Source: Bacteroidota bacterium (GTDB lineage Bacteria; Bacteroidota; Bacteroidia; Chitinophagales; Chitinophagaceae). Taken from it: DNA of 64,000 nucleotides. A model generated the notes under the pieces. The model had not been told where the DNA came from. It saw nothing but the letters and a program-made list of their open reading frames with translations, and did not search any database. Location of the stretch: assembly GCA_028876495.1 (NCBI GenBank), contig JAGWRO010000041.1, positions 1-64,000 of the forward strand, written 5' to 3'. The translations under genes were made by a program, and so were the position numbers. Shown here in pieces: positions 48,546 through 59,330 of the stretch; the stretch's first letter is position 1, and each line of letters starts with the position of its first letter.

Positions 48546-49012
48546 ATGGCTCTGAATCTTTTAAAGCAGTAAACGAAGAAAAAAGAAAGATTTTTATTTT
48601 AGCCTGAAGAAATATAAATAATATGTACTCCCTAAACTTTACAGAATATCCCTTTTCTATAGAACGGTTTTTAAAGCAAAGAGTGATAATTGCGAATCAT
48701 TCTTTATCATCTTGTAAAATAAAAATCTCGCTTATTTCTTGGTTTACTATTGAAGTCAAAATTCCAGTTTCGAATAAACGCGATAAACTGAAGCTTCAAA
48801 CAATATCACCAAAAAATCATTTTTTCTTTATTTTTCGAATTTTTTTGCTGTCCTTTCCAAATTAATTGATAATGTTGCTGCCTTTATAAATTTATCTTAA
48901 TAAAACGTACGATATTTGTATTAAAATTATTGCTATTCAACATTAATAATACTCCCATCTCCTGAAAGCAAACTCTTTTCAAGAGAAAAAATTGCAAAAT
49001 TTCCTTTTCATC
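48546..49012. other. 467-bp intergenic region before sucA
   Basis: AT-rich. An 80-codon frame (48623-48865) has no recognisable features and is not called. Presumably contains the sucA promoter; no firm TTTG/TAnnTTTG pair seen. Confidence 0.5.
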
Positions 49013-51760
49013 ATGAAAGATTTCTCGTATATAACCAGTTCGCATCCCGCTTATATTGAAAGCTTATATACTGATTTTAAAAAGAACCCCGAAAGTGTAG
49101 ATGCAGACCTGAGAAAGTTTTTTGAAGGGTTTGATTTTGCCGTTTCCACTCAAAACGGAAATGGGAAAGCTGCGACTGTTACAGAAACCAGCCCGGTATC
49201 TGTTTCTAACCTGGATAAAGAATTCGGCGTGTATCAACTGATACTTTCCTACAGGGAAAAAGGCCATCTTGTTGCAAAAACAAATCCTATAAGAGAAAGA
49301 AAAGACCGAAGGGCCAACCTTGGACTTTCCTATTTCGGTTTGAATGAAAGTGATCTGAATACAGAATTTGTTGCCGGCCGGTTTGCCGGAGTAGGCAAAG
49401 CCACTTTACAAACGATCCTCAATCATTTAAAAAAGTGTTATGCAGAATCTGTAGGTATAGAATTTAGTGCTTTAAATGATCCTGAAAAAATTGACTGGAT
49501 TATTAATGCCGTGGAAAATACTATGCAGCAGCCGGTTCCTTTGGAACAAAAAAGAAGGATTCTTCAAAAACTGAATGAAGGCGTGATATTTGAAAAATTT
49601 TTACAAACCAAATACGTTGGCCAAAAAAGATTTTCACTGGAAGGCGGAGAAAATACCATCTCAGCTCTGGATGCCATCATTAACACCGCTGCCGAAAATG
49701 AGGTACAGGAAGTAGTGATCGGTATGGCCCATCGCGGAAGGTTGAACGTGCTTGCCAACATTTTGGGAAAAACCTATGAACAGATATTCACTGAATTTGA
49801 AGGAAATGCAACAGTGGATTCTACCATGGGAAGTGGTGATGTAAAATATCATAAAGGCTATAGCAGCGACATCGAAACGCCTTCCGGAAAACTGGTTCAT
49901 TTAAAATTAAGTCCTAATCCTTCTCATCTTGAGGCGGTAGATCCTGTGGTATTAGGTTTTGCAAGAAGTAAGGCAGACGTCATTTATGAAAGTGATTATG
50001 ATAAAATTCTTCCTATTTTAATACACGGCGATTCTTCACTGGCAGGCCAGGGAATTATTTATGAAGTTTTGCAAATGAGCGGACTGAATGGATTTTGCAC
50101 AGGTGGAACTTTGCATTTTGTGATCAATAACCAGGTGGGTTTTACTACTGATTTTGATGACGCTCGTACTTCTGACTATTGTACTTCTGTAGCGGCAACC
50201 GTAAAAGCGCCCGTGTTTCATGTAAATGGCGATGATGCGGAAATGGTAGTAAAGGTTTCACAAATTGCCATGCTCTACAGGCAAAAATTCAATTCTGATA
50301 TTTTTGTAGATATGGTTTGTTACCGCCGTCATGGGCACAATGAAGGTGACGATCCAAAATTTACGCAACCGGGTTTGTATGCCTTGATTGAAAAACAACC
50401 CAATCCGCGTGAAACTTATATAAAATGGCTTTCACTTCATGGGGATGAAGCTACTGCCGGGCTTGCCAAAGAAATGGAAGAAAAATTCTGGAGCGATCTC
50501 CAGGAGCGCCTGGATGAAATTAAGCAAAACCCGCTTCCTTACAGTTATCAGAAGCCAGAATTGTGGTGGCAAAGCCTTCGAAAGGCTAAGCCGGAAGATT
50601 TTAAAAGTTCGCCCATTACCGCAGTTTCAAAAGCAAAAATTGAAAAGTTATTCCATGCTATCATGGAAGTGCCGGAAGATTTTACGCCGCTCAAAAAGAT
50701 CAAAAAGATATTACAGGATAAAATTAAATTGTATGATGCAGAGGGGAAATTTGATTGGGCAACCGGGGAATTGCTTGCGTATGCGAGTATTTTAGAAGAA
50801 GGCAAAGATGTAAGAATGAGCGGCCAGGATGTAAGGCGTGGCACTTTCAGCCATAGGCATGCCGTGATACGCGACGAAAAAACAGATGAGTTTTATAATA
50901 GGCTAAGCCGGATTTCTGATAAGCAAGGTTTATTAAGAATATGGAATTCTCTTTTGAGCGAATACGCGGTGCTTGGTTTTGAATACGGATATGCAATGGC
51001 CAATCCTAATAACCTGGTTCTGTGGGAAGCACAATTTGGTGATTTCGCCAACGGAGCCCAAACCCTAATTGATCAGTTTATAACAGGGGCAGAACAAAAA
51101 TGGCAACGCATGAATGGACTGGTTTTGCTCTTGCCTCATGGATATGAAGGACAAGGCCCGGAACACAGTAGCGGACGAATGGAGCGGTTTTTACAAATGT
51201 GCGCCGAACTGAACATGGTAGTTACTAATATCACGACTGCCGCTAATTTTTTCCATGGATTGAGAAGACAACTTGCATGGCCTTTCAGAAAACCAATGAT
51301 CAATTTTTCACCCAAAGCCAATTTGCGCCACCCGGGAAGCTACAGCAAAATTGAAGAATTTACCCAGGGAGGATTTAAAGAAGTAATAGACGATGAGTGG
51401 ATAACAGACGTGTCTTCTATTACTAAAGTATTAATGTGTTCAGGTAAAATTTATTTCGATCTGAACGAGAAAAGAGAAAAGGATCAGCGCAAAGAACTGG
51501 CAATTGTGAGAATGGAGCAACTATATCCACTGCCATTAAACCAGTTGGAAGATCTTTATAAAAAATACAATAAAGCCATCTGGTATTGGGTGCAGGAAGA
51601 ACCTTTGAACATGGGTGCGGCCACATTTTTAAGAATGAACCTGACTTCTATCAATTTTGGTATCATCAGCAGGCAGGCCAGCGCTTCTACTTCTTCAGGC
51701 TATGCAAGAATTCATGCAGAAGAGCAGGAAGAAATTTTAAACACTGCATTTTCTATTTGA
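49013..51760 (+). CDS. sucA: 2-oxoglutarate dehydrogenase E1 component
   Basis: 915 aa thiamine-diphosphate enzyme decarboxylating 2-oxoglutarate in the TCA cycle. ATG 49013 (MKDFSYITSSHPAYIESLY) is the usual start. Landmarks: VVIGMAHRGRLNVLAN, the ThDP/Mg region GDDAE plus HNEGDDPKFTQP, and the C-terminal pyrimidine half (LWEAQFGDFANGAQ, HGYEGQGPEHSS). Works with SucB, encoded 3.3 kb downstream past an opposite-strand pair, and with a lipoamide dehydrogenase not in the window. Confidence 0.97.
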   Translation: MKDFSYITSSHPAYIESLYTDFKKNPESVDADLRKFFEGFDFAVSTQNGNGKAATVTETSPVSVSNLDKEFGVYQLILSYREKGHLVAKTNPIRERKDRRANLGLSYFGLNESDLNTEFVAGRFAGVGKATLQTILNHLKKCYAESVGIEFSALNDPEKIDWIINAVENTMQQPVPLEQKRRILQKLNEGVIFEKFLQTKYVGQKRFSLEGGENTISALDAIINTAAENEVQEVVIGMAHRGRLNVLANILGKTYEQIFTEFEGNATVDSTMGSGDVKYHKGYSSDIETPSGKLVHLKLSPNPSHLEAVDPVVLGFARSKADVIYESDYDKILPILIHGDSSLAGQGIIYEVLQMSGLNGFCTGGTLHFVINNQVGFTTDFDDARTSDYCTSVAATVKAPVFHVNGDDAEMVVKVSQIAMLYRQKFNSDIFVDMVCYRRHGHNEGDDPKFTQPGLYALIEKQPNPRETYIKWLSLHGDEATAGLAKEMEEKFWSDLQERLDEIKQNPLPYSYQKPELWWQSLRKAKPEDFKSSPITAVSKAKIEKLFHAIMEVPEDFTPLKKIKKILQDKIKLYDAEGKFDWATGELLAYASILEEGKDVRMSGQDVRRGTFSHRHAVIRDEKTDEFYNRLSRISDKQGLLRIWNSLLSEYAVLGFEYGYAMANPNNLVLWEAQFGDFANGAQTLIDQFITGAEQKWQRMNGLVLLLPHGYEGQGPEHSSGRMERFLQMCAELNMVVTNITTAANFFHGLRRQLAWPFRKPMINFSPKANLRHPGSYSKIEEFTQGGFKEVIDDEWITDVSSITKVLMCSGKIYFDLNEKREKDQRKELAIVRMEQLYPLPLNQLEDLYKKYNKAIWYWVQEEPLNMGAATFLRMNLTSINFGIISRQASASTSSGYARIHAEEQEEILNTAFSI

Positions 51761-51813: not shown

Positions 51814-51846
51814 AAAAAAGCCGGAAATTACTGTTCCGGCTTTTTT
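51814..51846. terminator. Bidirectional terminator after sucA
   Basis: AAAAAAGCCGGAA / TTCCGGCTTTTTT with a 7-nt loop, between the convergent sucA and T9SS protein genes. Confidence 0.9.
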
Positions 51847-51861
51847 ATTGAAAAGATTTTT

Positions 51862-53010
51862 TTAATTTTTAACGACTGATAAAGTTTTACTATTTTCTCC
51901 TGCCTGTATCCTGACCATATAAGTTCCGCTTGGTACGTTAGAGAGATCAAGTGTTTTTTCATTCATTCCTTTTAAGCCTGTTATCTGTAGTTGTTGTACT
52001 ATATTACCCAAAGCATCATTAACACTTACTTTTATTACCTGTGCCTGATCGAGTGTAATGTTGAGTTTAGTGAAGCTTTGTACCGGGTTCGGATAAAGCG
52101 TAACTGCGAATCCTGAATTAGCAAATTGTACGCTCTTAATATCACTGTAAGCAAATTGTCCGTCTTTATCAACCATTTTTAAACGATAATATACGGTGCC
52201 CGAAAGATTAATAGTATTGTCAGTATAAGAATACGATGCTTGTGAAACTGAAGTTGCATTAACTGTTCCAATCTGGTTAAAATTGGTTCCGTTGGTACTT
52301 CTTTCAATTGCAAAATAACTTGAGGTGGCATCCTGGTTTTCAACAGTCCAGTTTAGAAGGGCATCGTTATTTTTAGCATTTACATTAAAGGTTGAGAGTT
52401 TTACGGGAAGGGCAATTCCTGTGATGTATACCCAAGAAGAACCGGAATACCCATTGCCATCATTAGAAAAATTTGAAGAACTTACATTTGAATAGAATTG
52501 TGCTGGTTGATTCGTAACATCAAAACCTCTATCAGCGATATAAAAATTCACATTACCTGTTGAGCCACCTCCGGGAAGTTGCATCAATCTCACCTGGCTG
52601 GTAGCTAAAGGATTTCCGGTAAAAAAGACCTCCGCAATTGTATATTCTACTCCTGCTGTATAAGTAGTTCCTGAACCAGTAAGCGAGCCATTACCACTAA
52701 ATCCATATCCATAATAAGGAATACTATTCTGGGTTTCGGTCGCTCCATCAGTTGCGTAACTTACTGTTGGGTCTAAAGAAGTAATTGAAAAACCAGGCTG
52801 AGTACCAACGCTGGTTGGTATGCCAATTTCAAATTGAAAAGTTGACAACTTGACACCAGTTAATGTTGTATTCGATTTGATTACAACATAAACGGAGTTT
52901 GTTTGACTTCCTGGTGTTATAGTTGCAGAAATATAATTACCTGCTGATTGTGAAAAGCTTGTAAGAACAAAGAAAATGAGGAGAGTTAAGAGTAAAAAAT
53001 GTTTTTTCAT
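51862..53010 (-). CDS. T9SS-sorted surface protein with candidate cohesin-like N-terminal domain
   Basis: 382 aa. Signal peptide ends near SFSQS (about 22). Residues ~24-165 form a beta-rich domain of cohesin size (YVVIKSNTTLTGVKLSTFQFEIGIP, then EYTIAEVFFTG), ~200-297 a fibronectin-III-like domain (LLNWTVENQDATSSYFAIERS), and 305-382 a T9SS type A sorting domain (LYPNPVQ ... GTYMVRIQAG ... VVKN). It is exported by the type IX system and attached to the cell surface or released. Ten bp downstream of the dockerin-like gene on the same strand. Cohesin similarity is a judgement by eye. Confidence 0.78.
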   Translation of the reverse strand: MKKHFLLLTLLIFFVLTSFSQSAGNYISATITPGSQTNSVYVVIKSNTTLTGVKLSTFQFEIGIPTSVGTQPGFSITSLDPTVSYATDGATETQNSIPYYGYGFSGNGSLTGSGTTYTAGVEYTIAEVFFTGNPLATSQVRLMQLPGGGSTGNVNFYIADRGFDVTNQPAQFYSNVSSSNFSNDGNGYSGSSWVYITGIALPVKLSTFNVNAKNNDALLNWTVENQDATSSYFAIERSTNGTNFNQIGTVNATSVSQASYSYTDNTINLSGTVYYRLKMVDKDGQFAYSDIKSVQFANSGFAVTLYPNPVQSFTKLNITLDQAQVIKVSVNDALGNIVQQLQITGLKGMNEKTLDLSNVPSGTYMVRIQAGENSKTLSVVKN

Positions 53011-53020
53011 TTTATAAAAA

Positions 53021-54598
53021 TTATGGTAATTTTTGTGTTACGGAATTAGTCGCTATACCTGATAATACTTGTGAAAGTAAAAAATCTTTATCGTTATTGG
53101 GGCTTGAGTACTTAACAACTCCATCCATATTCAGATCTCCATTGCTATAACCAGATACTTGAGAAGTAGATACGCCTACTAAAATAGCACTTAGGAGGTA
53201 ATCCTTATCGTTAGAAGGTCCTGTATATTTCACATTTCCATTCATATTCGCATTGCCCGCCCACAAAACATACTTCCCATCACCTGCAACACCATGCGCA
53301 GATGCTCCTCCGTATAAAAAAGCAGAAGTGGTAAAATCAACTAATGGAGCTGTAGATTGTTTTTCAGATAATAATGGAGTAAATGATGAAGGATCAGTAC
53401 TTAAACCAAGATGGTTGCGATGCCTAACCACAATGGTATAATTAGCTGAAGAAACATTATTAAAAGTAACCGGGCTTTTTCCATCTACATCTACAATATC
53501 ACCGTCTCTTTGTACCAAAGCAGGTCTTGTTTGCACAACGGTAGTTCCGGCAGAATTTCTTAATTCTAAAAATACCCAATCTACAATATTGTCGTTTTGT
53601 GAAGCTTGATAACCTAAAACGGCAGCATTTATCGTATCAGCAGCGGCATCATTTACTTCGGTAAAAGCACTACTGTAAGGAGAAGTTTTGTATGGATCAG
53701 AATGAGGAATAACACCTGCGGATCTTAATTTATCTGACATTAAATGGGTTGTTGTATCGTAGGCACCTTGCAAAAATACTTTTCCTTTTAAAAGGTCGAA
53801 CTTATCCATTGCTGTAATATTGGCAGTGTCAATGATTATGGGAAATGAGATCGTATTTGAAGTAGTATTAACTGTTCCACTTGCTGAAGACCAATCAGTG
53901 CCGTCAAATAAATAGCTTTTTAAATTGTTTTCGGTCCCCGAGATATCAGTGGGATCGGTATAGCGGGCATCTACATTTAAAGAGCCACTGATACCTGTTT
54001 GTGTAATTGTCCAGTTAGCCTTTAAATAATCAGTAGTGGATGGTGGTTTATGGGCACTTGCTGAATCCAGCACTTGTACGCCTACTTTGGCTCCACTGTA
54101 ACTTCCGGATGTGGTAAGAAATGCTGGCCGGTAAACCGTTCCCGCGCCTACCGGGATTTCGTTCGAAGTAAGGTTGGAAGAAATTTCTTTAAATACCTGG
54201 CCTGCACTATCTGTTTCAATAAATTTTCCTGTTCCCATTCCGGAAAGACTTGTTATATCGGCGAGTGAAAAATTATGATTGTTAATAATGAATTTTCCAT
54301 TGGTAAATAAAAGCGAATTGGAAACTCTCATATCGCCGGTTAACCAAACTCCATTAGAATTATCGATTTCCAGGTTAGGAATGGAGTTGCCATTCATATT
54401 TACTGATTGAGAATCAATTCCTTGTAGTAGAAATTTACCAAAACCAGGCAATCCCTTTGCACTTGAAATATCGCCTGTAACAGTAACCACGGCGCCGGTT
54501 TGTACAACAAAACTAACTGAATCAATAGTTAGCTGTGCGTTGACTCCATTATACATAAAAACGACACAAGAAATAATGAATAAAACTTTTTTTCTCAT
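53021..54598 (-). CDS. Secreted protein with C-terminal dockerin-like repeat pair
   Basis: 525 aa. Signal peptide MRKKVLFIISCVVFMYNGVNA. The middle is beta-rich and uncharacterised. The C-terminus has two copies of a calcium-loop repeat: GNANMNGNVKYTGPSNDKDY (448-467) and GDLNMDGVVKYSSPNNDKDF (487-506), each followed by LLS; the D-x-N-x-D-G-x-V start matches a dockerin/EF-hand loop with an extra 4-residue insertion. Unlike its neighbour it has no T9SS sorting domain. The likely model is that it docks to the partner encoded 10 bp downstream. Confidence 0.78.
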   Translation of the reverse strand: MRKKVLFIISCVVFMYNGVNAQLTIDSVSFVVQTGAVVTVTGDISSAKGLPGFGKFLLQGIDSQSVNMNGNSIPNLEIDNSNGVWLTGDMRVSNSLLFTNGKFIINNHNFSLADITSLSGMGTGKFIETDSAGQVFKEISSNLTSNEIPVGAGTVYRPAFLTTSGSYSGAKVGVQVLDSASAHKPPSTTDYLKANWTITQTGISGSLNVDARYTDPTDISGTENNLKSYLFDGTDWSSASGTVNTTSNTISFPIIIDTANITAMDKFDLLKGKVFLQGAYDTTTHLMSDKLRSAGVIPHSDPYKTSPYSSAFTEVNDAAADTINAAVLGYQASQNDNIVDWVFLELRNSAGTTVVQTRPALVQRDGDIVDVDGKSPVTFNNVSSANYTIVVRHRNHLGLSTDPSSFTPLLSEKQSTAPLVDFTTSAFLYGGASAHGVAGDGKYVLWAGNANMNGNVKYTGPSNDKDYLLSAILVGVSTSQVSGYSNGDLNMDGVVKYSSPNNDKDFLLSQVLSGIATNSVTQKLP

Positions 54599-55052: not shown

Positions 55053-56315
55053 ATGTCAATAGAAATTAAAGTGCCTGCGGTAGGCGAAAGCATTAGTGAA
55101 GTAACACTTACAAAGTGGATAAAAAAAGATGGCGAATGGGTTGACAGAGATGAGGTAATTGCTGAGTTGGAAAGTGAAAAAGCAACTTTTGAGATTAATG
55201 CAGAGCAGGCAGGAATTTTACATACCATTGCCAAAGAAGATGATGATTTACAAATTGGCGATGTTGTTTGCACCATTGATGAAACCGCGGAGAAACCGGC
55301 TGGCAAAAGTGAATTGAAAGAAGATAAAAAACCGGAAGCAGAACAAAAAGAAACCAAACCGGAACCCAAAGCAGAAGATATTTCTGTAAAAACAATTTCT
55401 CCTGAAGAAAATAAGCGCCTACAAAATGAAGGCGTAAAAGCAACTCCGGTTGCGGCAGCCATTCTCGCTGATAAGAAAGTAGATGTTTCAAAAATAACGG
55501 CTACAGGCTCTCATGGTAAAATAACGAAGAATGATGTAATTGATGCACTTTCAAATCCGGGAAGAGCGATAGACAAAGAACTTTTCAGCAGAGAGGAAAA
55601 GACTGAAAAAATGAGCAAGCTGCGCAAGACGATCAGCAGAAGATTGGTGGAGGCAAAAAACAGTACTGCCATGCTTACCACTTTCAATGAAGTGGACATG
55701 AGTGCTATTATGGAGTTGAGAGCGAAGTATAAAGAGACTTTTAAAAAAACGCATGAAGTGAACCTGGGTTTCATGAGTTTTTTTACCAAGGCCTGCTGTT
55801 TTGCTTTGCAGGAATGGCCTTCGGTAAACGCAAGGATCGAAGATGAAAATATTATTTATCATGAATTTTGTGATATTTCAATCGCTGTTTCCTCTCCGAA
55901 AGGATTGGTAGTTCCCGTGATACGAAATGCTGAAAGCCTTAGTATGGCAGAAATTGAAAAAGAAGTGGTTCAACTGGCTGTCAAAGCGAGGGAAAGTAAG
56001 CTCACTATTGAAGAAATGACGGGTGGCACTTTCACCATCACCAATGGTGGCATATTTGGCTCTATGATGAGTACACCTATTATCAATATTCCTCAAAGCG
56101 CCATTTTAGGAATGCACAATATTATTGAGCGTCCTGTGGCCGTGAAAGGACAGGTAGTAATTAAGCCAATGATGTATTTGGCATTAAGTTATGATCACCG
56201 CATAATTGACGGCCGTGAATCTGTAAGCTTTTTGGTAAGGGTAAAACAGATGCTTGAAAACCCTGAACAGCTTTTATTTGGCAAAGACCCTGTCAAAGCA
56301 CTTTTGCAGATTTAA
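55053..56315 (+). CDS. sucB: Dihydrolipoyllysine-residue succinyltransferase (2-oxoglutarate dehydrogenase E2)
   Basis: 420 aa. Lipoyl domain 1-75 with lipoyl-lysine Lys43 (ESEKATFE), a Glu/Lys/Pro-rich linker, peripheral-subunit-binding domain around 128-166 ([14 protein letters not shown]), then the catalytic acyltransferase domain with His382 and Asp386 ([10 protein letters not shown]). Passes succinyl groups to CoA. The start ATG is 55053. Separated from sucA by an opposite-strand surface-protein pair. Confidence 0.97.
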
Positions 56316-57620: not shown

Positions 57621-59330
57621 TTACTGAACCAGTAATTTAAAACTCTCTTTGTTTTTACCATCACTGAATTTTAAAATGTACAACCCTTTTTGAAGCGCCT
57701 GCATTTGATCAAAACTAATCGTTTGTATTACTCCTTGCTGTAGAGAAACCTGTTTTGAAAAATAAAATTTTCCTGATGCGTCATATAATCTAAAGGTAGC
57801 TGTAGAAGTAATTTGTGGCTTTATGGCAACGGTAAAATTATCTTTAAAAGGATTGGGAAACACTTTTATGAATTGATTGCCTAAAATGGCTGCAACATTT
57901 TTGGCAGCTCTTTGCTGGCTAAGATCATCAAAAGCTTTTTTGAAATCAGGAATACCGTATCCAATTCTGTCATCGGGATTATTATAAATGCTGCTGCTTT
58001 TTTTAACTGCTTCAATAATTTGCATATTGGTAAACTCAGGAAATGCCTGCCACAAACAAGTGACTAAACCAGCAAGATTGGGTGTTGCAAAGGAAGTTCC
58101 ATAACCAACCTGGATAGGGCCGGTTGTGGATGAAAGTGCAGTTCCTGAACCAACAGAAGCTGCTGTAGGCTTCACTCTTCCATCGCTTGCCGGGCCATAA
58201 CTGCTAAAACTTGCCACATTTCCAGATACATCGGTTGCCCCAACGGTTATTATGCTGTCAGCGTCAGCAGGTGTTATAATATAATGCCAGCTGTTATCAC
58301 CTTCATTGCCGGCAGCGGCAAGTACGATCATTCCTTTTTTTGCAGCAAGTGTGGCTGCTTTGGCAATCATGGTGGTGTGCCCATTCATGTCAGAATATGT
58401 ATAATCGAAAACAGGATTATCAAATAAATTATAACCAAGAGAAGTTGAAATAATATCAGCGCCTGCACTATCCGCTCTTTCAGCAGCCGCGATCCAATAT
58501 TGTTCTTCCACAGGCGATTCTGAATTTACATCTTCCGAGCGGTACAATAAAAATCTTGCATCCGGGCAACTACCCACCAACTGGCCGGGAATATTTCCTG
58601 CAATCACAGAAAAGCACATCATGCCATGATAAAAATCCTCATCAACGCTTGTTTCGTTCGCTACAAAATCGTAAGTGTCAATCACCTGGTTATTGATATT
58701 TATGCTGTCAAAAGCAGGCAAAGTTTTGTAATGATAAAAACCTGCGTCAAGAATGGCTATCAACATTCCCTGCCCACTAAAACCCTCGTTGTGTAAATAT
58801 TCACCGTTATGAATATGAATCTGGTCGTAAGAATTGCCGTACGAATAATAGTTTCCCGGAACCGGTGGCGATGCTGGCGAAGTAATTCCTTTTATTTGTT
58901 CATTAAATTTATCTTTTAATATTTCATTGTCCGATTGATTTCGATGAACTAAATTCGGACTCATCAATCTTTTTACCGGCTCAGTTTTTACTACAAAAGA
59001 AAAACTGTTGATCTTAGAAAGTGCAGTAGAATCTGTAGTTGAAATACAAACCTGGTTGAACCATTTTGATTGATCAAGAACGGTAACATTGCTTACCGAT
59101 TGAATGCTATCTATATAAGCAGGAACAATGGGCAAATCTGTTTCATCAATCGCAATACCTTGTTTGGCTCTTCTTTCAATGGCTTTTGCAGATAGAAATT
59201 TTGAAGGATCATTTATTGAAAAAGGAGTCCCTGTTTTGTCTTTAAACCTTACAATGTATTTTGTAAACTGGGCAGAGAGATGCAGAGAAAAAAAAGTGAT
59301 AGCGAAAAGAAGCAAATATTTTTTTCTCAT
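57621..59330 (-). CDS. S8 subtilisin-like serine protease, T9SS-sorted
   Basis: 569 aa. Signal peptide to about residue 20, propeptide-like region, then the S8 domain with Asp195 (AILDAGF), His235 (FYHGMM), Asn342 (AAGNEG) and Ser413 (GTSFATP), all intact. C-terminal T9SS type A domain (VFPNPFKDNF ... GLYILKFSDG). Secreted endopeptidase. The HGMM context of the histidine differs from the usual HGT but is seen in this Bacteroidota group. Lies 53 bp downstream of a lipoprotein gene. Confidence 0.92.
   Translation of the reverse strand: MRKKYLLLFAITFFSLHLSAQFTKYIVRFKDKTGTPFSINDPSKFLSAKAIERRAKQGIAIDETDLPIVPAYIDSIQSVSNVTVLDQSKWFNQVCISTTDSTALSKINSFSFVVKTEPVKRLMSPNLVHRNQSDNEILKDKFNEQIKGITSPASPPVPGNYYSYGNSYDQIHIHNGEYLHNEGFSGQGMLIAILDAGFYHYKTLPAFDSININNQVIDTYDFVANETSVDEDFYHGMMCFSVIAGNIPGQLVGSCPDARFLLYRSEDVNSESPVEEQYWIAAAERADSAGADIISTSLGYNLFDNPVFDYTYSDMNGHTTMIAKAATLAAKKGMIVLAAAGNEGDNSWHYIITPADADSIITVGATDVSGNVASFSSYGPASDGRVKPTAASVGSGTALSSTTGPIQVGYGTSFATPNLAGLVTCLWQAFPEFTNMQIIEAVKKSSSIYNNPDDRIGYGIPDFKKAFDDLSQQRAAKNVAAILGNQFIKVFPNPFKDNFTVAIKPQITSTATFRLYDASGKFYFSKQVSLQQGVIQTISFDQMQALQKGLYILKFSDGKNKESFKLLVQ

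Follow-up and report, generated by a model that had tools for sequence, protein, structure and literature searches.

How might a secreted protein that carries no T9SS sorting signal of its own be held at the surface of a Bacteroidota cell? The question is raised by two adjacent genes in a window of 64,000 nucleotides, the whole stretch of DNA that was analysed, from a member of the Chitinophagaceae. We refer to the upstream gene and its product as DOC and to the downstream gene and its product as COH. Our analysis indicates that the two are probably dedicated to docking with each other in the manner of cohesin and X-dockerin, with COH anchoring DOC at the surface.

Both open reading frames (ORFs) were found where the first-pass annotation had placed them, on the minus strand, as are all features within them given below. 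DOC (53021–54598, 525 aa) is followed by COH (51862–53010, 382 aa) after a gap of 10 bases (53011–53020), in which no terminator-like hairpin was listed on that strand. A terminator-like hairpin matching the consensus lies immediately 3' of COH on the minus strand (51814–51846), although the number of such sites, three found against 1.9 in shuffled sequences, is not significant. The pair is flanked by two plus-strand genes, sucA (2-oxoglutarate dehydrogenase E1; 48992–51760) and sucB (2-oxoacid dehydrogenase E2; 55053–56315), and this site is common to relatives.

COH begins with a signal-peptide-like N-terminus (residues 1–20, 52951–53010), recognised by eye and helical at residues 2–18 in the model. 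It is followed by the N-terminal domain, or N-domain (residues 21–198, 52417–52950), which the model, profiles and co-variation mark as a putative dockerin receptor, by an FnIII-like domain (residues 201–300, 52111–52410) that matches FnIII structures such as 2ibb (Z 10.6, rmsd 2.3, 93 residues), and by a T9SS type A sorting tail (residues 302–382, 51865–52107). Both Pfam (Por_Secre_tail, 2.8e-12, residues 305–376) and NCBIfam (TIGR04183, 1.9e-10) recognise the tail, in agreement with the earlier view that COH is T9SS-sorted. The window genome also encodes SprA (SprA_N, 4.2e-156), and COH thus combines the two marks of a type A substrate, a sorting domain at the C-terminus and, in the genome that encodes it, a T9SS. 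As a substrate of this type, COH would have its tail cleaved and become attached to the surface.

DOC also has a signal-peptide-like N-terminus (residues 1–21, 54536–54598; by eye, with a helix at 2–14 in the model). Its AlphaFold2 model (pLDDT 89.9) continues with a beta-rich, solenoid-like passenger (residues ~22–186, 54041–54535), for which an adhesin domain, a tailspike and other beta-solenoid proteins were weak structural matches (Z 4–6), and with a second beta domain (residues ~195–265, 53804–54016). The rest is, in the model, an X-dockerin-like module. Its first part, an X-module-like domain (residues ~267–436, 53291–53800), carries the conserved motifs IVDW..ELR and RHRNHLG, and in the window protein Pfam does not recognise it significantly; its second part is a dockerin-like tail (residues 437–525, 53024–53290) with two loop-helix repeats (helices 464–472 and 503–511). 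Full-length DOC gave no significant match in Pfam or NCBIfam and hence has no T9SS tail and, by Pfam, no enzyme domain; a T9SS signal in DOC was discarded on this ground. Among 162 DOC ORFs examined, none ends in a T9SS tail, and in all of them the module ends within 22 residues of the C-terminus. A permissive scan picked out T9SS-like stretches in two DOC ORFs (L123 and L126), of which standard filters leave the one in L126, located internally. The division into an anchored and an unanchored protein, as originally proposed, is supported by these counts.

The calcium-type loops of the tail, NANMNGNVKYTGPSND (residues 449–464, 53207–53254) and DLNMDGVVKYSSPNND (residues 488–503, 53090–53137), are followed by KDYLL and KDFLL, respectively. 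Classical dockerin calcium loops have 12 residues; those of DOC have 16 each, and the extra loop mentioned in the first-pass annotation corresponds to these four additional residues per loop. The D-x-N-x-D-G-x-V pattern, originally ascribed to both, holds for loop 2, whereas loop 1 reads N-x-N-x-N-G-x-V. The tail therefore has the two tandem calcium-loop–helix repeats of a dockerin at its C-terminus but departs from Dockerin type I (Dockerin_1, PF00404) in loop length. A search of the window tail with dockerin profiles, the check initially suggested, gave no Dockerin_1 match at the gathering threshold, which we relate to the 16-residue instead of 12-residue loops. Homologues from the same two-gene setting did score above the cutoff (L059, 1.1e-7; L068, 4.4e-8; L065, 3.7e-5), while L064 and L067 scored below it and L066 gave no match. 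Because only 3 of the 26 scanned DOC family members (set A8) matched Dockerin_1 at E ≤ 0.01, usual annotation would miss most of the scanned family. A regular expression for the tail gave no match, and the tail was searched for by profile. Elsewhere in the window genome, three weak Dockerin_1 matches (8e-4 to 6e-3, below the cutoff and covering at most half of the profile) fall in frames of ~1,000–1,130 aa.

The fold points in the same direction. When the model of residues 266–525, the last ~260 residues of DOC, was compared with known structures, the best eight matches by Z were all X-dockerin-type chains (Z 7.6–9.0, rmsd 3.7–4.0, 145–151 residues), and the next, unrelated match had Z 6.2; Foldseek's own E values for the listed X-dockerin matches were 0.1–0.4. 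Six of the eight come from structures deposited under titles that name type II cohesin-(X-)dockerin complexes (4u3s, 4wi0, 5g5d, 5m0y, 2b59 and 5k39), and the other two to Clostridium thermocellum scaffoldin entries (4fl4 and 3kcp), of which we take the matched part to be the X-dockerin. The modelled region thus appears to have the overall fold, an Ig-like X-module followed by a dockerin, of the type II X-dockerin dyad, a likeness at the level of fold. In a search of PDB sequences with the DOC family profile, the first seven matches were dockerins or enzymes known to carry a dockerin (best E 0.0035, others 0.02–0.2). Model fold, Dockerin_1 matches in some homologues and profile matches together support the dockerin half of the original proposal.

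The cohesin half fared differently. A beta domain with strands between residues 27 and 160 was modelled where a cohesin-sized beta sandwich had been suggested, but no sequence link to cohesins was found. The cohesin profile PF00963, named earlier as a check, matched neither the window N-domain nor the other 12 partners of set A1, and at E ≤ 0.1 it had no match at the partner genes of 99 relatives or anywhere in the window genome; in 11 of these relatives cohesins scored above the cutoff, never at partner genes. The COH N-domain had no match in Pfam, NCBIfam or PDB sequences. When 17 or 52 N-domains were aligned by hhalign with 24 PF00963-type sequences, the probability was 0.3%, and no grouping gave a link, the best (5.5%) being obtained with partner N-domains of other families, found beside dockerins with 12-residue loops. 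The other partner N-domain family (A10) has no match in PDB sequences, and N-domains paired with 12-residue-loop dockerins show no detectable homology with the window type (hhalign E 0.004–0.03, probability ≤9%). For the nine-stranded jelly-roll fold of cohesins, the one hint came from a structure search with whole COH, in which 2w1n was matched over its cohesin and FnIII domains (Z 9.4, 203 residues, rmsd 14.2), tentatively, as this Z is not above that of FnIII pairs; the list was filled by FnIII domains, and the absence of other cohesins from it is uninformative. At L250, a T9SS protein clustered with a DOC gene has a PF00963 cohesin (5.2e-7) adjoining an N-domain of the window type.

If the two proteins are partners, their genes should occur together, and homologues found mostly apart had been named as evidence against the idea. 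Among 244 Chitinophagaceae genomes, 25 of the 30 strong N-domain places lie directly downstream of a DOC gene; the other five are in G228 (four) and G280 (one). This adjacency is partly circular, since most of the sequences used to build the COH profiles came from genes next to DOC, and 11 of the 30 places belong to that training set (G000, G020, G023, two in G028, G045, G053, G249, G099, G137 and G236:C16, the last four corresponding to L081, L083, L087 and L108). Outside the training set the count is 14 of 19. All 21 genomes with an N-domain also hold DOC (hypergeometric 6e-18, with the tree not modelled), and the window genome has one DOC-family and one COH-family match. When loci were picked solely for their similarity to DOC, a gene for an N-domain or an FnIII-plus-T9SS protein came after 24 of 96 DOC ORFs, whereas an N-domain or T9SS gene came after 8 of 359 other ORFs. 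Chance adjacency was dropped on the strength of these recurrences, and neither the DOC tail nor the gene order is fortuitous, since both recur in other Bacteroidota.

The converse relation is looser. In a phylum-wide sample of 296 genomes, the X-dockerin-like module occurs in 39 (E ≤ 1e-15), including all six genomes with COH, while COH is not detectable in the other 33. Three of the seven COH places in this sample are training sequences, and three of the remaining four adjoin DOC; the 16 phylum loci examined were a manual selection, in which four were included for their COH matches. Across the 162 DOC ORFs, counted after removal of those with an open C-terminal end, of duplicates judged on their last 200 residues and of matches weaker than 1e-20, a recognised partner comes next in 61, a figure inflated by the many loci fetched for their COH matches. 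For the others, the next gene is on the opposite strand (44), of another kind (19), another DOC (17), distant (9) or one whose product shows nothing but a T9SS-like tail (5), or no ORF follows in the sequence examined (7). In the Cytophagales loci L113 and L143 the N-domain protein lacks a T9SS tail. Thus COH is mostly found beside DOC, while many DOC genes have no such neighbour.

A partnership should also leave a trace in the domains that would touch. Over 48 pairs, the divergence of the COH N-domain follows that of the dockerin tail (Spearman 0.612) far more closely than that of the DOC X-module (0.289) or of its own FnIII and T9SS part (0.172); only pairs with FnIII and T9SS parts in the partner were used, and the aligned N-domains are not all demonstrably homologous. 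In three reduced sets, which leave out pairs with 12-residue loops and N-domains of ≤140 residues, the partial correlations were 0.467, 0.544 and 0.437 (0 of 999 permutations each; like the hypergeometric value, these ignore the tree). We therefore rejected the idea that co-variation results solely from two dockerin classes, as the signal persists with one class removed. At the sucA–sucB site, L066 pairs 12-residue loops with another N-domain family, and the window, L081 and L086 pair 16-residue loops with the window type. Neighbour conservation and co-variation both support the pairing proposed at the outset.

The many lineages in which several DOC-tailed proteins have no adjoining COH invite another reading: the tail itself could direct sorting or retention, as a signal that the secretion machinery or the cell envelope recognises, with COH only co-transcribed and taking part in the same process. 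The position of the module at the very C-terminus of proteins without a T9SS tail would suit such a signal. We nevertheless consider it unlikely, as the tail co-varies with the COH N-domain and little with the COH FnIII and T9SS part, and as its modelled fold is X-dockerin-like. The tail might instead dock to a receptor encoded elsewhere, COH being a second, separate adhesin in the operon. Genomes in which DOC genes outnumber COH genes (DOC counts per genome are lower bounds; G228 has at least 11, against six COH) and the PF00963 cohesins away from the partner genes of relatives are compatible with this, yet in the window genome DOC is matched once and PF00963 not at all at E ≤ 0.1, and co-variation together with the paired loop and N-domain difference at the sucA–sucB site points to the neighbour, which makes a distant receptor decidedly improbable. 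That the loops have only a thrombospondin-3 or RTX-like role, giving the C-terminus stability in calcium with no protein partner, accords with their consensus and is very improbable in view of the X-dockerin-like fold, the Dockerin_1 matches of homologues and the partner co-variation.

The best reading is that COH is a T9SS-anchored receptor that tethers, and perhaps co-exports, the anchorless DOC. DOC would be exported by Sec, lacking a T9SS tail, and its X-module and dockerin-like tail would plug into the N-domain of COH. The type A tail of COH would provide passage through the outer membrane and then anchoring, so that DOC would be held on the cell surface via COH. Binding would presumably depend on calcium, and the two proteins may cross the outer membrane as a single complex or come together only outside the cell. 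More speculatively, we can envisage a piggyback T9SS route, in which DOC crosses the outer membrane only when docked, already folded, to its tailed partner; with related plugs and sockets in several Bacteroidota orders, one T9SS tail could serve many kinds of client, the specificities diverging by lineage. If confirmed, binding would assign both a place and a partner to secreted proteins whose role is unknown, provide plug and socket pairs for surface display, and make T9SS export of a protein without its own signal directly testable.

Cohesin- and dockerin-like modules outside cellulosomes were reportedly, by its title, the subject of a 2009 paper. A cellulosome, with a multi-cohesin scaffoldin and several dockerin-bearing enzymes, was rejected here, as the window genome has only one pair and DOC no enzyme domain by Pfam. 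The Clostridium perfringens GH84C cohesin-FnIII structure (2w1n) has the same domain order as COH, by the tentative match above with its rmsd of 14.2 over both domains, and presumably no T9SS tail. In a system of Cloacimonadota, a cohesin-type receptor stays attached to the cell through its C-terminal domain and receives dockerin-bearing clients, an arrangement like that proposed here. There, the cohesin and dockerin domains are recognised by InterProScan, one scaffoldin has 3,755 aa and the clients are enzymes, whereas here a single Pfam-invisible domain in the 382-aa COH would receive a client in which no enzyme domain was recognised. Also close are the clostridial type II cohesin/X-dockerin systems (2b59, 4u3s and 5g5d), which share with DOC an X-module and a C-terminal dockerin with two loop-helix repeats. 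Clostridial X-dockerins dock to an anchored partner, and clostridial cellulosome partners carry Gram-positive surface modules. Unlike these pairs, DOC has loops of 16 rather than 12 residues, COH has a T9SS tail and no PF00963 signal, and one plug and one socket are encoded by neighbouring genes.

The two genes lie on the minus strand, flanked on either side by the plus-strand sucA and sucB (2-oxoglutarate dehydrogenase E1 and E2). The upstream gene, DOC (53021–54598), encodes 525 aa, and the downstream gene, COH (51862–53010), encodes 382 aa. Searches of all 525 residues of DOC against Pfam and NCBIfam gave no significant match and no T9SS tail, and COH carries a T9SS type A sorting tail at its C-terminus (Por_Secre_tail, 2.8e-12); with a gap of 10 bases between the genes, the first-pass annotation was correct in describing an unsorted product encoded next to a T9SS-sorted one. 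The closest named relative of DOC is a Ferruginibacter MAG protein (58% identity). A consensus scan placed a terminator-like hairpin 3' of COH and listed none between the genes on the minus strand, which fits a single transcript for both. SprA is encoded in the same assembly, and thus the T9SS is likely present. The window also encodes a subtilase (57621–59330; Peptidase_S8, 1.5e-36) with a C-terminus that, by eye, is similar to a T9SS tail; at two loci from other Bacteroidota (L066 and L067), a protein with a T9SS-like tail likewise lies one gene past sucB.

In its AlphaFold2 model (pLDDT 89.9, pTM 0.83; 33 aligned sequences), the C-terminal part of DOC is predicted to fold, at the level of fold only, like an X-module followed by a dockerin. 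Among the chains ranked highest by Foldseek, the top eight rows by Z (Z 7.6–9.0, 145–151 residues, rmsd 3.7–4.0) comprise six chains of type II cohesin–(X-)dockerin complexes and two of C. thermocellum scaffoldin entries, all matching within model residues 266–525; the ninth is an unrelated protein (Z 6.2). Foldseek gave no E-value below 0.001 with this model, listing X-dockerin-type rows at E 0.1–0.4 and probability 0.23–0.87, and the assignment is based on eight related structures agreeing along almost the entire X-dockerin. Residues 267–436, which correspond to the X-module and include a conserved RHRNHLG, had no significant Pfam match in the window protein. The proposed recognition by dockerin models held for some homologues and not for the window protein: the DOC tail has no Dockerin_1 match by sequence, and of six scanned homologues from the same two-gene setting, three scored above the cutoff, two more at E <0.01, and one had none. 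Three weak Dockerin_1 matches occur elsewhere in the window's genome. When the DOC family profile was compared with PDB sequences, the first seven matches were dockerins or dockerin-bearing enzymes (best E 0.0035, others ≥0.02); unrelated proteins and some further dockerins came next. The calcium loops of the window-type tail have 16 residues each instead of 12, four more per loop. Together, the model fold, the homologue matches and the PDB comparison bear out the dockerin-like layout noticed earlier.

COH consists of a signal peptide, an N-domain (residues 21–198), an FnIII-like domain (201–300) and the T9SS tail; its model is weaker than that of DOC (pLDDT 79.9, pTM 0.50; 14 sequences). Profile comparison (hhalign 94–96%, E 8.6e-8 and 4.1e-9) shows the N-domain to be homologous to that of quite different partners from Flavobacteriales MAGs. 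Because other domains follow it there, the N-domain is the common part of the partners. No similarity to PF00963 cohesins was detected by sequence. FnIII dominated the structural matches of the COH model, and the one cohesin–FnIII construct, 2w1n, matched over both domains with Z 9.4 (203 residues, rmsd 14.2), no better than the Z of FnIII pairs. We therefore term the N-domain cohesin-like only in role: the suggested partner function is supported by pairing and co-variation, and the suggested kinship with PF00963 is not supported by sequence.

Among 244 Chitinophagaceae genomes, the N-domain occurs at 30 strong places in 21 genomes, all of which also hold DOC, and 25 of the 30 lie directly downstream of a DOC match; after removal of 11 profile-training places, 14 of 19 adjoin DOC. 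The non-adjacent places are in two genomes with several DOC genes, G228 and G280. In the phylum sample (296 Bacteroidota genomes), there are seven places in six genomes, each with DOC. Six of the seven adjoin it (3/4 outside the training set), and in the seventh, locus L250, the N-domain is in the second gene downstream. At loci fetched by DOC similarity alone, an N-domain gene or FnIII+T9SS protein followed 24 of 96 distinct DOC ORFs; for other ORFs, an N-domain or T9SS gene followed 8 of 359. Over all loci, including those chosen for holding COH, 61 of 162 DOC ORFs are followed by a candidate partner gene (39 N-domain and 22 FnIII+T9SS, the N-domain of the latter being unrecognised by the profile). 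Of 16 DOC loci selected by hand from the rest of the phylum, 12 have a gene with a T9SS-like tail directly downstream, as do 8 of the 12 that were not chosen for a COH match. No T9SS tail follows the DOC module in any of the 162 ORFs, and in each of them at most 22 residues separate the end of the module from the C-terminus.

G228 (L210–L220) encodes at least 11 DOC-tailed proteins, scored among 34 candidates, with tails that look much alike, and six N-domain proteins, three of which come from open frames 1,316–2,271 aa long. A many-to-few docking network is possible in this genome.

Plug and socket also vary together. Across 48 pairs, pairwise distances of the COH N-domain gave a rank correlation of 0.612 with those of the dockerin tail, of 0.289 with those of the X-module, and of 0.172 with those of COH's own FnIII+T9SS part. 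Given the X-module and FnIII+T9SS part, the partial correlation was 0.467, 0.544 and 0.437 after removal of 12-residue-loop pairs (35 left), removal of near-duplicates (29) and restriction to one loop motif (27), respectively, and was reached by 0 of 999 permutations in each set. The two components differ together at one genomic site, between sucA and sucB (Pfam-confirmed in the window, L066 and L081): L066 combines 12-residue loops (by eye) with another N-domain family, A10, and the window, L081 and L086 each pair extended loops with an N-domain of the window family. At L067, a pair of the L066 type lies next to sucB (by eye), and its opposite neighbour is a different gene. In the L250 cluster, PF00963 cohesins occur in both a DOC protein (L250:1–1512) and a T9SS protein (L250:3352–4848), in the latter beside a window-type N-domain.

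The expectation that homologues would be constant neighbours largely holds from the side of the N-domain and fails from that of DOC, as no adjoining partner was recognised for most of the 162 DOC ORFs. In the phylum sample, profile search detected no COH in 33 of the 39 genomes with DOC. Either the profile no longer recognises their diverged sockets, or the tail serves other purposes. Anchoring is not universal, since a small N-domain protein in Cytophagales (L113, L143) lacks a T9SS tail; the gene order there (Spirosoma and Emticicia; L143:3–8155, L113:1577–6878) is DOC, this protein and two genes of ~280 aa. Genomes G051 (L051–L055) and G070, G086 and G098 (L069–L080) each encode several DOC-type proteins, with no recognised partner beside those examined. 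Some DOC genes in MAGs of Flavobacteriales and other Bacteroidota share 4 bases with a gene whose T9SS-tailed product resembles a beta-propeller by eye (L090:1357–2640, L105:4925–6178, L151:5729–6988), possibly a further partner type. In several genomes of the window's order, recognised cohesin and dockerin domains lie close together in single long open frames (contigs G089:C11, G004:C12, G037:C1 and G058:C1).

We propose that Sec would carry both proteins to the periplasm and that COH would cross the outer membrane via its T9SS tail. Most likely, DOC would dock onto the COH N-domain through its dockerin-like tail and would thereby be placed at the surface. Binding before export (piggyback) may be favoured over binding afterwards, because DOC has no T9SS tail and would otherwise need another way out; according to a review, the T9SS passes folded substrates (PMC9251779). 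The front half of DOC is modelled as beta-rich and solenoid-like, with weak structural matches, as in adhesins. Elsewhere, the DOC module is found on a polysaccharide deacetylase-domain protein and on a beta-helix protein (L254, L262).

Searches of open-licence PMC literature on dockerins with T9SS/type IX secretion, or on CTD-less co-export, yielded no description of such a pair. We file DOC–COH as a variant of cohesin–dockerin docking previously undescribed in that literature, outside PF00963 and PF00404 because sequence tests of membership in both families were negative. The nearest published case that we found is in Cloacimonadota, where, according to PMC8542988, a proposed cohesin scaffoldin is held by a C-terminal domain.
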